64,000 nt of DNA, taken from contig NZ_FNEX01000002.1 of assembly GCF_900100435.1 (NCBI RefSeq), forward strand, positions 62,001 through 126,000, written 5' to 3'. Within the stretch, counting starts at the first letter, position 1, and every line of letters begins with the position of its first letter. Origin of the DNA: Pedobacter sp. ok626. GTDB taxonomy: Bacteria > Bacteroidota > Bacteroidia > Sphingobacteriales > Sphingobacteriaceae. A model generated the notes under the pieces. It was given only the letters and a program-made list of their open reading frames with translations. It was not told the origin of the DNA and ran no database searches. The translations under genes were made by a program, and so were the position numbers. Shown one piece after another: positions 17,908 to 22,605 of this stretch.

Positions 17908-18849
17908 TTAAACATTAAAAAGGTCACTAATAGATCCATGCTCATTTACATTGGCAATTGCTTTTGCAAATAATGGAGCAGTAGTAAGCACTCTTATTTT
18001 TGCACTTTCCTGTTTTAAAGGAATCGTATCCGTAACAATCAACTCAGTCAACATTGAGTTCTCAATAGTTTCATAAGCTTTACCTGATAATACAGGGTGT
18101 GTACAAACCGCTCTTACACTGTTCGCACCTTTTTCCATGATCAAAGCAGCTGCTTTAGCCAAGGTACCAGCGGTATCGCAAATATCGTCAATCAAAACAA
18201 CATCCTGTCCTACTACATCACCGATGATCGACATAGACTCAATTTCGTTTGCACGTTTACGTCTCTTATCACAAATTACTACCTCTGCATTAAAGAACTT
18301 TGCAAAAGTACGAGCACGATAAGAACCACCCATATCTGGTGAAGCGATTATTAAGTTTTCCAGTCCCAAACTTTTAATATAAGGAACAAAGATGACAGAA
18401 CCATCAAGGTGATCAACCGGGATATCAAAAAATCCCTGTATCTGTGCAGCGTGAAGATCCATAGTCATGATTCTGTGGATACCCGCAGATTTCAGTAGAT
18501 TAGCCACCAATTTAGCACCTATTGCCACCCTTGGTTTATCTTTTCTATCTTGTCTTGCCAAACCATAGTAAGGAACAACTGCAGTAATGTAATGTGCTGA
18601 AGCCCTTTTCGCAGCATCAACCATTAGCAACAATTCCATTAAATTATCAGAAGGTTGGTAAGTAGACTGTATGATAAAAACATCACAACCACGTACAGTT
18701 TCATCATAAGAAGGCTGAAACTCACCGTCGCTAAACTTATTTAAAGTTACATCGCCAAGTGGTTTGCCGTATTGTTCGGCAATTCGTTTTGCTAATTCTT
18801 TTGTACCTGTTCCGGCAAAAAGTTTAACGGGATTAAATTGCAATGGCAT
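17908..18849 (-). CDS. prs: Ribose-phosphate pyrophosphokinase
   Basis: 313 residues, normal length. Landmarks are KFSDGEFQPSYDETVRG, MDLHAAQIQGFFDIPVDHL and the PRPP-binding loop VVLIDDICDTAGTL. The enzyme makes PRPP from ribose-5-phosphate and ATP for nucleotide, His and Trp synthesis. Followed by rplY and pth. Upstream lies the terminator of the tRNA-Gln gene; the best promoter-like match (TACCTTCG at about 18855-18862 on the minus strand) falls between that terminator and the start codon. Confidence 0.97.
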   Translation of the reverse strand: MPLQFNPVKLFAGTGTKELAKRIAEQYGKPLGDVTLNKFSDGEFQPSYDETVRGCDVFIIQSTYQPSDNLMELLLMVDAAKRASAHYITAVVPYYGLARQDRKDKPRVAIGAKLVANLLKSAGIHRIMTMDLHAAQIQGFFDIPVDHLDGSVIFVPYIKSLGLENLIIASPDMGGSYRARTFAKFFNAEVVICDKRRKRANEIESMSIIGDVVGQDVVLIDDICDTAGTLAKAAALIMEKGANSVRAVCTHPVLSGKAYETIENSMLTELIVTDTIPLKQESAKIRVLTTAPLFAKAIANVNEHGSISDLFNV

Positions 18850-18910: not shown

Positions 18911-18920
18911 ATATTGTTAG

Positions 18921-18991
18921 TTGCCCCACCAGGATTCGAACCTAGACAAACGGTACCAAAAACCGTTGTACTACCTTTATACTATAGGGCA
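18921..18991 (-). tRNA. tRNA-Gln (anticodon TTG)
   Basis: The minus strand reads 5' TGCCCTA, D arm, anticodon stem ACGGT/ACCGT around loop TTTTGGT (anticodon TTG, codon CAA), TTCGAAT in the T loop, and 3' TGGGGCA plus discriminator A. The acceptor stem pairs 7 of 7 with one G-T. The CCA end is not encoded. A near-perfect promoter is upstream (19040-19070) and a terminator directly downstream, so it is an independent transcription unit. Confidence 0.95.
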
Positions 18992-19070: not shown

Positions 19071-19293
19071 TACAAACTCAAAAAAACTCGAATTATTTCA
19101 AGTCTATTTTCTACCTCTCAAAATAACCACTTAAAAATGAGCAATTTGTTTCTATAAAAAAACAATTATTTTTTTTGAAAAAATTCACCTCAGCTATCTT
19201 AACGATAACTTTAGCTACATTATAGTGTATGTAAGACGGAAAATGACAAAATGCAATGCTCTTGACGAAAATTCTTCACAAGATTAAGGTTTC

Positions 19294-19389
19294 TTCACAC
19301 CTGGTTCACACCTCCTTCACACCAAACCCACAAAAAGGTACCTTTTTGTGAAGAAAGTGTGTCTAATGTGTGGATCATGTGAGGACTAT
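19294..19389. repeat. Quasi-palindrome with six 11-bp-phased CACAC/GTGTG half sites
   Basis: The left half has TTCACACC at 19294, 19305 and 19316, exactly 11 bp apart. The centre is a perfect 22-bp palindrome (19329-19350, CACAAAAAGG TACC TTTTTGTG overlapping at the middle). The right half has GTGTGTCTAAT, GTGTGGATCAT and GTGAGGACTAT at 19357, 19368 and 19379, again 11 bp apart. Half-site centres lie about 20, 31 and 42 bp either side of the dyad. This points to a multi-site protein-binding region or cruciform, 190 bp before the DUF2723 gene. Confidence 0.7.
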
Positions 19390-19575
19390 TCCTTAACTCC
19401 GTTCCGATTCAGCAAACTTATGTACTTGATCAAGCTCCTTGAATCCAATGATACCACCAAAAAAATTACTAAAAAATGTTAAACTCCTCCATACATTGCC
19501 TTACTATCAATCTTATTCTTTATTTTCGGCTGCATTTTAATCGCCTCAATAACACATTAACTATTCAATAAAGAA

Positions 19576-22500
19576 ATGAATTATTCAAAAATTAATAATC
19601 TTACTGGCTGGCTTTGCTTTCTAATTGCCGCTGTAACTTATATTTTAACATTAGAACCATCTGTAAGTTTCTGGGATTGCGGTGAGTTTATCGCTTCCGC
19701 TTTTAAAATGCAGGTTGTGCATCAACCAGGTGCTCCGTTATTTTTAATGATTCAAAGATTCTTCTCTCTTTTCGCTTTCGGCGATATTCATAAGATTGCC
19801 TATTTTATGAACGTAGGTTCGGCAATTGCCAGTGCTGCCACTATATTATTCTTATTCTGGACCATCACAGCTTTAGCTAAGAAAGTCCTGATCAAAGAAA
19901 ACGAAGAAATCTCTAAGGGTAATTTAATCGCTATCATGGGAGCAGGTGCAGTTGGTGCCTTGGCCTATACTTTTTCTGATAGTTTCTGGTTTTCGGCTGT
20001 TGAATCTGAAGTATATGCTTTATCATCTTTATTTACAGCCATCGTTTTCTGGGGAATTTTAAAATGGGAAGCCCAGGCAAATGAACCACGTGCTGATAGA
20101 TGGTTGCTATTTATAGCTTATATTATGGGCTTATCGATCGGTATTCACTTATTGAACTTACTTACGATTCCAGCTATCGCTTTTGTTTACTACTTTAAAA
20201 AGACAGACAAACCTACTACTGCAGGAATTGTTAAAACAGGAATCATAGGTATACTTATTCTTGCCGTTATACAATATGGAATTATACAATACCTGGTTTC
20301 ATTTGGTGCATATTTCGATTTATTCTTTGTCAACACTTTAGGATTAGGCTTTGGCTCAGGCGTACTTTTCTTTGCCATTTTATTAATCGCTGGTTTAGTA
20401 TGGGGAATCCGTTATTCTATCAAACACCAGAAAAAAGTTTTAAACTTAGCATTGCTTTCAACCGTATTGATCATATTCGGTTATTGCTCATTTGCGATGA
20501 TTGTTATCCGTGCAAAAGCAAGTCCTAACCTAAACAACAGCGATCCTGAAAATGCTTTCTCATTCCTAAGCTATTTAAACAGGGAACAATATGGCGACAG
20601 ACCACTATTGTTTGGTCCTAACTATAACTCACAAAAAGTAAACCTTACACAAGGCAAAACCTTATATAGAAAAGGTGATGACAAATATGAGGTTGCTGGT
20701 AAAAAAACTGAATACGAATACGACAAAACCACTCCTTTCCCAAGGATGTATAGTGATGAGGGACGACATGTTTCTTATTATAAGGATATGATGGGTTTTG
20801 ACGATAGTCATTTCCCTAGCTTGTTTGACAACATTGGTTTCCTTTTCAGGTACCAGGTGGGCCAAATGTACATGCGCTACTTTATGTGGAACTTTGTTGG
20901 CCGTCAAAATGACGATCAGGGACAAGGAAGCTTATACGAAGGGCAATGGTTAAGCGGTGTTAAACCTATTGATGCGATGATGCTTGGTGATCAGAAAAAC
21001 CTTCCACCATCTATCGTAGACAGCAATGCTTACAACCGCTTCTTCTTCCTTCCACTTATTCTCGGTTTACTGGGTGCTATTTGGCACTTTAAAAGAAATC
21101 AAAAGGACGCAGGCATTGTTGCCTTATTGTTTTTCTTTACCGGTCTGGCTATTGTACTTTACCTGAATCAAAAGCCACTTGAACCTCGTGAAAGGGATTA
21201 TGCTTATACCGGATCCTTCTATGCCTTTGCCATTTGGATAGGTCTAGGCGTATTGGCCATCCGCGAATGGTTATTCAAAAAACTAACACCTGCAACAGGA
21301 GCTGTATTGGCTACGATTACAGGCTTATTTGCCGCACCAGTTATTATGGGCGCTCAAGGTTGGGATGATCACGATCGTTCGAGCAAAATGGTAGCTCACG
21401 ACATTGCAGTCGATTACCTGCAGTCCTGTGCACCTAACGCCATTCTATTTACTTATGGTGACAACGATACTTACCCATTATGGTATGCCCAAGAGGTAGA
21501 AAACATCAGACCGGATATTAAACTGGTTAACTTAAGTTTGTTCGACACCGACTGGTATATCAATGGAACAAGAAAACTGCAAAACGAATCTGCACCCCTA
21601 CCTATAACAATGAAGCCTTCTCAATATGTACAAGGTGTTAGAGATGTAATGTATTACCAGGATTATAAAGTTGCTGGTTCTGTAGAATTAAGCAACATTC
21701 TTGCGATCCTTTTATCTGACGATGCTGAGGATAAACTTCCGTTACAAGATGGAAGCAGAGAAAACTTTATTCCTACCAAGAACTTTAAACTTACAGTAAA
21801 CAAAGCCGACGTACTTAAAAATGGCGTTGTAAGCCCAGCAGATTCAAGTAAAATTGCTCCTGTATTGGAATGGACATTCAATAAAAACTATGTAACCAAA
21901 GGTACATTGGCTTTCTTCGACATTCTGGTACACAACGACTGGAAAAGACCTATCTATTTTGCCAGCACTGTACCGTCAGATCAATACAATGGCCTTGACA
22001 ACTATTTATACAACGAAGGCTTAGCCTTGCGTTTACTGCCATTAAAAGCTGACACATCAGCAAATAGAGCAGAGCTGATCAACACGCCTGTTCTTTACAA
22101 AAACGTGATGGATAAATTTGTATGGGGAAATATCAAGAATGCAAAATACCTTGATCCTCAATCATCAGATGACATATCGATCTTTACCAACGTATTCAAC
22201 AACACCATCTCTGGCTTAATCAAAGAAGGTAAAGCTGAAGATGCTAAGAAAGCTGTAAATCGTTACTTTGAAGTAATGCCTGAGCGCTTCTATGGAATGC
22301 GTTCTATGATGGGCACCTATTTCATGGCTGAAAATCTTTATCTGTTAGGTGACGTTAAAAGAGCGAATGCTTTAATTGAAAAATCTGCAGCATACATCCA
22401 AAAGGAACTTACTTACCTGGCCGATGTTTCTGAAAGCAAGCGTAAATTTATTGGCGGACAGAACGTTCAACTAGGTTTATCATTCCTAAATCAAATGTCT

Positions 22501-22605
22501 AAAACAGCCGCACAGCATCAGCAAACAAAACTGAGCGAAAGCTTAAACCATCAGTTTGAAGGCCTTGAAGCAAGGTTCTCACCATACTTTGCCGCTGGTC
22601 AGTAA
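19576..22605 (+). CDS. DUF2723 multi-span membrane protein, candidate protein O-glycosyltransferase
   Basis: 1009 residues. The first about 600 residues hold about 12 membrane helices. The start LEPSVSFWDCGEFIASAFKMQVVHQPGAPLF is the DUF2723 signature, with Asp/Glu in the first loop where GT-C fold glycosyltransferases keep their catalytic acid. The C-terminal about 400 residues form a soluble part with TPR-like helices near the end. DUF2723 also occurs in vertebrate TMEM260, reported as an O-mannosyltransferase, so a role in protein O-glycosylation at the periplasmic face is plausible. It is monocistronic, with element E2 immediately after the stop codon. Confidence 0.75.
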   Translation: MNYSKINNLTGWLCFLIAAVTYILTLEPSVSFWDCGEFIASAFKMQVVHQPGAPLFLMIQRFFSLFAFGDIHKIAYFMNVGSAIASAATILFLFWTITALAKKVLIKENEEISKGNLIAIMGAGAVGALAYTFSDSFWFSAVESEVYALSSLFTAIVFWGILKWEAQANEPRADRWLLFIAYIMGLSIGIHLLNLLTIPAIAFVYYFKKTDKPTTAGIVKTGIIGILILAVIQYGIIQYLVSFGAYFDLFFVNTLGLGFGSGVLFFAILLIAGLVWGIRYSIKHQKKVLNLALLSTVLIIFGYCSFAMIVIRAKASPNLNNSDPENAFSFLSYLNREQYGDRPLLFGPNYNSQKVNLTQGKTLYRKGDDKYEVAGKKTEYEYDKTTPFPRMYSDEGRHVSYYKDMMGFDDSHFPSLFDNIGFLFRYQVGQMYMRYFMWNFVGRQNDDQGQGSLYEGQWLSGVKPIDAMMLGDQKNLPPSIVDSNAYNRFFFLPLILGLLGAIWHFKRNQKDAGIVALLFFFTGLAIVLYLNQKPLEPRERDYAYTGSFYAFAIWIGLGVLAIREWLFKKLTPATGAVLATITGLFAAPVIMGAQGWDDHDRSSKMVAHDIAVDYLQSCAPNAILFTYGDNDTYPLWYAQEVENIRPDIKLVNLSLFDTDWYINGTRKLQNESAPLPITMKPSQYVQGVRDVMYYQDYKVAGSVELSNILAILLSDDAEDKLPLQDGSRENFIPTKNFKLTVNKADVLKNGVVSPADSSKIAPVLEWTFNKNYVTKGTLAFFDILVHNDWKRPIYFASTVPSDQYNGLDNYLYNEGLALRLLPLKADTSANRAELINTPVLYKNVMDKFVWGNIKNAKYLDPQSSDDISIFTNVFNNTISGLIKEGKAEDAKKAVNRYFEVMPERFYGMRSMMGTYFMAENLYLLGDVKRANALIEKSAAYIQKELTYLADVSESKRKFIGGQNVQLGLSFLNQMSKTAAQHQQTKLSESLNHQFEGLEARFSPYFAAGQ

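Follow-up and report, generated by a model that had tools for sequence, protein, structure and literature searches.

The usual explanation for interspersed palindromes in bacterial genomes is either a RAYT transposase or a dead transposon. Regularly phased protein sites are known from other settings: OmpR/PhoB type factors read direct repeats of about 11 bp, PhoB/OmpR operators and the ParR parC site are arrays of 11-bp direct repeats, and the arrays of E. coli oriC follow a 9 + 2 bp pitch. REP sequences are defined as 20–40 bp palindromes that end in a GTAG- or CGTC-type tag (PMC3733652), insertion sequences (IS) are known to enter REP elements (PMC1525189), and E. coli oriC holds two oppositely oriented low-affinity DnaA arrays (PMC4285127). 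Here we describe a dispersed intergenic element of Pedobacter, about 127 bp long, in which opposed arrays of TNNTTCACA-type 9-mers at 11-bp pitch stand round a GGTACC palindrome. Our literature search found no description of this element, and a term search of PMC12306157 returned no mention of Pedobacter.

In the window, the whole stretch of 64,000 nucleotides of Pedobacter sp. ok626 DNA that was analysed, three TTCACACC units start at 19294, 19305 and 19316, in 11-bp steps that can be read directly, and the opposed units GTGTG (19357 and 19368) and GTGAG (19379) follow at the same step. Between them a perfect 22-bp palindrome, CACAAAAAGGTACCTTTTTGTG, spans 19329–19350 with its dyad between 19339 and 19340, and the half-site centres of the arms lie about 20, 31 and 42 bp from this dyad. 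Direct reading therefore bears out the preliminary description of six half-sites at 11-bp spacing, mirrored round a 22-bp palindrome. The single word TTCACACC shows no enrichment in the window, with 4 occurrences against 1.92 expected and 13 of 100 shuffles reaching 4.

This phased array (19294–19389) is the core of a longer element of about 127 bp, modelled at 19272–19398 (+ strand) from a 21-copy alignment by the covariance model R1. Beyond the six half-sites first noted, the element contains an outer TTCTTCACA half-site, unit z (19272–19280, + strand), which lies 20 bp left of the next TTCACA and is retained by many copies though not by all. The left arm also has a fourth CACA unit, at 19324. 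The information profile of 76 of 95 copies resolves the left arm (19291–19332, + strand) into the 9-mers TTCTTCACA at 19291, TGGTTCACA at 19302, TCCTTCACA at 19313 and AAACCCACA at 19324, each followed by 2 bp to give the 11-bp pitch. The right arm (19347–19386, − strand) carries the opposed units TGTGAAGAA at 19347, TGTGTCTAA at 19358, TGTGGATCA at 19369 and a shifted TGTGAGGAC at 19378, and the gapless stack of 76 of 95 copies yields the unit consensus TNNTTCACA plus 2 bp. The central palindrome includes GGTACC and is the site of an IS in two copies of the relative G067 (L186 and L187; G and L denote genomes and loci). The right border (19387–19398, + strand) is variable, and elsewhere the right end of other copies abuts a neighbouring stop codon. 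One left unit is missing in L117 and L118 and one right unit in L119, as judged by eye, in 11-bp steps.

The intergenic gap of 584 bp given in the preliminary description is correct when counted from tRNA-Gln (18920–18991, − strand) to the ATG at 19576. A ribose-phosphate pyrophosphokinase gene (prs; 17908–18849, − strand, assigned by Pfam) forms the left flank. The gene on the right (19576–22605, + strand), first put forward as a membrane glycosyltransferase candidate, is assigned by Pfam to a TMEM260-like O-mannosyltransferase family (PF11028, E 5.5e-75).

The array had been said to lie alone, and genome-wide this is wrong. The search for further arrays in the genome, which had been suggested as a check, was run with the triple unit TTCACAN5TTCACAN5TTCACA and gave 10 matches at 11-bp pitch in the 6.76-Mb genome, the reversed control pattern giving 0. 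BLAST finds the same 10 places with 89–100% identity across about 100–130 bp, and the flanks of these copies differ except for a common left flank in L044 and L046. Covariance model R1, built on 21 aligned copies and searched over 145 genomes of the genus, detects the element in at least 23 of them, three of which (G041, G059 and G083) have weak matches only, with best E values of 1e-5 to 7e-7. The exact triple-unit pattern is present in all five element-bearing genomes tried and in none of five others, and in a species-level collection all 42 core-pattern matches among named species belong to Pedobacter. Plasmid, phage and viral collections gave no match to the element, and carriage by phage or plasmid was rejected on this result.

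For comparison we collected 97 copies (75 located first, 20 added and two split by an IS), which are no census, and the copy numbers are lower bounds. Most copies are intergenic, and 52 of the 97 lie in neighbourhoods common to two or more genomes, such as upstream of a rimP-nusA-like operon in four genomes and beside a bcp-like gene in four. The names rimP, nusA, bcp, GlyRS, gld and dnaA given to genes in single loci are our presumptive identifications, recognised from translated ORFs. The preliminary description had made its reading depend on conservation of the repeats in close relatives. Conservation is found at the level of the family; at the window site, however, the element is present in only 3 of the 30 closest loci. 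This prs/TMEM260-like site carries the element in three genomes, and in G041 the site orthologous to the window element has a CCCGAAG-type core (L289) with a left arm that does not match.

Element copies evolve in concert within some genomes. The variant AAATACACAAA occurs in 11 of 11 G067 copies and in 0 of 84 others, and 9 of these 11 copies occupy sites shared with genomes that hold another version; similarly, AAAACCCACAAA occurs in 15 of 16 G097 copies and in 3 of 79 others. The G067 copies are homogenised, with an identity of 0.869. Mean identity, calculated with the two IS-split copies excluded here and in the arm-covariation analysis, is 0.814 for 49 same-site pairs; pairs from different sites in these genomes average 0.789, and paralogs inside one genome 0.822. 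Same-site identity exceeds the other-site value in 31 of the 49 pairs and the paralog mean in 20. Homogenisation is not universal, because the copies of G002 and G084 have diverged (paralog identity 0.74) and one same-site pair between both genomes is 0.97 alike.

The IS in G067 is the same at the palindrome centre of both elements (L186:2876-4551 and L187:2786-4461), where it has the ends GTGGCTGTTGCAGAA and a DDE transposase with Pfam matches to DDE_Tnp_1_6, DUF772 and DDE_Tnp_1; we take it to be IS1182-like. By eye, the two IS-bearing copies resemble each other in the right arm but not in the left, as expected from recombination between elements. An autonomous 1.7-kb parent of the element in G067 was considered and rejected, since what separates the array halves is an IS that has inverted repeats and a DDE transposase of its own and is thus a guest. 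Another G067 copy (L113:5921-6047) comes close to a perfect palindrome, with 97% self-complementarity at the 38 positions compared, as though one of its arms had served to correct the other.

The spacing of conserved positions within the element bears on what it is kept for. Conservation has an autocorrelation of 0.42 at lag 11, the highest among lags 3–33, in 76 of 95 copies; the other 19, which are not 127 long or are out of register, were excluded from the rhythm and covariation analyses. In pairing register 0, a copy's own arms score 0.6203 and arms exchanged within the genome 0.6206; in register −11 the values are 0.5874 and 0.5845, and 32 of 300 shuffles reach the value of the own arms. 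When arms are exchanged between genomes instead, own arms have a small pairing advantage (the observed values are reached in 5 and 1 of 300 shuffles) that lineage alone can explain. The 11-bp conservation rhythm and the lack of arm covariation within genomes together favour a double-stranded array bound by protein, rather than a hairpin or RNA under selection. Between the two readings first offered, cooperative loading of a DNA-binding protein, whose binding we infer, fits these data best, whereas a designed cruciform as a selected feature finds no support, own arms pairing no better than those of sister copies.

A candidate partner gene emerged from the neighbourhoods of the element. Genes of the DUF6266 family occur in 105 of the 145 genomes, often 15 or more in each, and one viral contig carries a distant DUF6266 (36%). 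A profile built from eight element-linked DUF6266 proteins was searched over the 145 genomes and returned, among the matches listed, 16 matches at 275–409 bits, followed by a drop to 212 bits or less. These 16 genes lie, again among the matches listed, in 15 genomes that all bear the element (15 of 23, against 0 of 122 others). Eight of the 15 genomes had supplied the profile and had been chosen for closeness to the element, and the other seven form an independent test: in six of them the element lies 44–157 bp upstream of DUF6266, and the locus of G013 ends at a contig edge. In the profile loci the distance is 90–237 bp in six of eight cases; in G050 and G071 a small ORF intervenes and the distance is about 875 bp. 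G132 has a second DUF6266 gene with a diverged element, and P. panaciterrae O48 (L141) is a further linked case among named loci.

In a tree of DUF6266 genes gathered by HMM, with identical proteins counted once, the 15 linked proteins form one clade (SH-aLRT 99); L252 (G013), which has no upstream sequence, was excluded both here and from the upstream-array test described below. In P. frigoris a protein of this clade is encoded at L137:2366-3004 (− strand). The linked genes sit in several different neighbourhoods, one of which holds the element alone in G067 (L116) and the element with DUF6266 in G000, G050 and G071. The gene-adjacent copy is more central among its genome's copies in 5 of 6 genomes tested, the exception being G121 (0.743 vs 0.803). 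An ORF family of 86–108 aa, most members with KRPSG[T/A]KAE near the N-terminus, lies within about 520 bp of nine elements in G000, G050 and G071; its members stand between element and DUF6266 in L083 and L106 and occur also in L039, L042, L043, L044, L046, L107 and L128, and they have no Pfam match above cut-off.

Several results count against a partnership with DUF6266. Among the matches listed, 8 of the 23 element-bearing genomes have no linked DUF6266, including G067 with its homogenised copies, and no DUF6266 remnant was found in the loci from G067, G002 and G084 (best tblastn E 0.017). The structural model of DUF6266 is poor (mean pLDDT 52), with only the C-terminal half reasonably confident; this half is FnIII-like in the prediction, which is not a known DNA-binding fold and counts against a role as the binder. 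No solved structure was a convincing relative (best E 0.18). The association of gene and element could also reflect shared ancestry of both.

Weighing these points, we give about even chances to a REPIN-like interspersed element whose half-sites would be bound, and perhaps copied or converted, with the help of a DUF6266 partner; both binding and copying are read from the sequence patterns. In each arm a protein would load cooperatively along one face of the helix, and a protein of the DUF6266 clade, alone or with a host factor, may be this loading protein or its helper. Gene and element would then behave like a RAYT–REPIN pair, in which the gene-adjacent copy would serve as the source and copying or gene conversion would spread solo copies or overwrite them. 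At the loci compared, neither a clean empty site nor a target duplication was found, which counts against this reading. Any effect of the window copy on its flanking genes would be secondary.

By analogy with the account in PMC3116915, the element would work most like a REPIN with its RAYT, yet it falls outside that class for lack of a RAYT. The two systems share short intergenic imperfect palindromes in several copies per genome (10 in G000) and a partner gene that is confined to repeat-bearing genomes, present in one or two copies and accompanied by a repeat beside it. Insertion sequences also target REP, as the IS guest sits at the centre of our element. In contrast to REP/REPIN, the element is 127 bp long with 11-bp phased half-sites, no more than 16 copies per genome are among the matches listed, the ends of the 127-bp consensus bear no GTAG- or CGTC-type tag, and the repeat-confined gene is the analogous DUF6266 clade rather than a RAYT. 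The Y1 transposase domain (Y1_Tnp, PF01797) is found in 1 of 23 element-bearing genomes, as a 64-aa frame with a stop, against 81 of 122 without the element, and a RAYT partner was rejected on account of this near-absence. The family thus combines almost no RAYT and an architecture suggestive of regular protein docking with copies that are often site-stable yet homogenised and with co-occurring DUF6266. DUF6266, on which our literature search found no paper, gains a first testable role, and the concerted evolution of short bacterial repeats becomes directly testable.

Upstream of 43 unlinked DUF6266 genes we looked for 6-base units recurring every 10–11 bp, comparing each region with 150 shuffles. 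At p≤0.0134, phased arrays precede 10 of the 43 genes but are present in only 2 of the 120 upstream regions used as controls (Fisher 3e-5), both of these being AT-rich runs; at p<0.05 the counts are 15 of 43 and 6 of 120, and the absence of an array at the remaining 28 genes counts against the DUF6266 reading. The ten strong cases amount to about eight groups of close homologs in our reading of the tree. Motifs named for the subfamilies are TTCACA, TTCGG/CCGAA, GTTCGG, CGGCAA, TCAA and others, and we propose TTTCTTC-xxx-...GGTACC...-xxx-GAAGAAAG as their shared skeleton. G056 and G057 have a sister family, built on the same skeleton but with CCCGAAG where the element has GTGAAG; it stands before a different DUF6266 gene, and further copies in these genomes have no DUF6266 gene within their 3-kb loci. 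Genus-wide, the CCCGAAG pattern gives 28 matches in 22 of 145 genomes against 10 for the reversed control and is therefore partly noise. We tentatively suggest, as a possibility well short of even, that DUF6266 represents a RAYT-independent system of repeat recognition and propagation, in which each subfamily would pair with its own phased array and specificity would change between subfamilies on a shared skeleton. Judged by eye, apparent sister elements with CCCGAAG/CTTCGGG for GTGAAG/CTTCAC are limited to L293, L311 and L316 (G056) and L294 and L315 (G057), with less clear ones at L297 (G084) and L289 (G041).

The element might instead be a MITE, or another passive relic of a DNA transposon, that spread in the past and is now kept or converted by ordinary homologous recombination, its link to DUF6266 being mere hitch-hiking. 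Like MITEs it is small, non-coding and dispersed with inverted arms, and both the diverged copies of G002 and G084 and the recombined appearance of the two IS-bearing G067 copies by eye would agree with such an origin. However, a search with the exact pattern in G050, G067, G070 and G097 found no full-length parent with separated ends, no target duplication was seen, and no empty site could be resolved. Unlike MITEs, moreover, over half of the collected copies occupy sites shared across species, the copies are homogenised in some species, and the DUF6266 link recurs in different neighbourhoods. We consider this origin unlikely.

Fixed operator arrays of a transcription factor, for example of the OmpR/PhoB type, would make the copies a regulon and DUF6266 only one regulated gene. 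The 11-bp helical phasing of the direct repeats, the mostly intergenic and often stable sites and the nearest left ORF, which in 65 of 94 copies is directed away from the element, are all in keeping with this. The flanking genes, however, are of mixed orientation (−+ 37, −− 28, +− 17, ++ 12), and an ORF that heads for the element stops within 26 bp of the right end in 22 of 75 copies; the corresponding figure at the left end is 3 of 75 (from ORF calls, some of them short). Linker bases are among the species-private variants, no copy was found in 122 of the 145 congeneric genomes among the matches listed, and the element differs from direct-repeat operators in its mirror symmetry round a palindrome, its dispersal and its concerted evolution. 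Such a regulon is rather improbable.

Somewhat more doubtful again are arrays for titration of DnaA or for regulation by it, in which the units would be degenerate DnaA boxes at 9 + 2 bp pitch, forming two arrays of opposite orientation like those of E. coli oriC. Both consist of 9-mers ending in CACA, and the unit TNNT[T/A]CACA retains T1, T4 and CACA of TTATNCACA; unlike the oriC arrays, the element is multi-copy and lineage-restricted, its third unit position is not A and it has no clustered canonical boxes, each TNNTTCACA unit having at least one mismatch to the 9-mer TTATNCACA. In G097 a dnaA-like gene is 0.9 kb away from the element at L103; rRNA operons in G070 and G097 are preceded by four copies, about 0.7 kb before 16S rRNA; and two or more DnaA_C genes are commoner with the element (12 of 23 genomes vs 31 of 122). 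DnaA, however, is universal (145 of 145 genomes), but the element was found in at least 23. Boxes of the canonical form show no excess (49 and 71 matches against 63 and 68 for the reversed control) and same-direction pairs of them are rare (1 in 6 genomes), so the canonical sequence is only a putative Pedobacter box; the arrays at other DUF6266 genes have motifs unlike DnaA boxes. Duplication of the DnaA gene as a requirement is unsupported, since 11 of the 23 element-bearing genomes, G067 and G002 among them, have a single DnaA_C gene. Across the genus, 43 of 145 genomes have two to four DnaA_C matches, for example G000, G050, G070 and G097, which is an unusual multiplicity.

A structured RNA or single-stranded DNA hairpin selected for pairing is very improbable, for although the + strand folds well as RNA (z −4.5, 0 of 200 shuffles as good) and as DNA (z −3.0, 2 of 200) and L056 has one compensatory pair, only 1 of 16 predicted pairs shows a two-sided change, arm exchange shows that arms do not covary within genomes in register 0 or −11, folding of the − strand is weaker (z −1.9), and an Rfam search with E values up to 5 found nothing over the element.

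Beside the element, a block upstream of the TMEM260-like gene (TATCAATCTTATTCTTTATTTTCGGCTGCATTTTA, window 19505–19539) is strikingly kept in the relatives aligned, with surrounding sequence that is poorly alignable; candidates for it are a short upstream ORF and a regulatory RNA.
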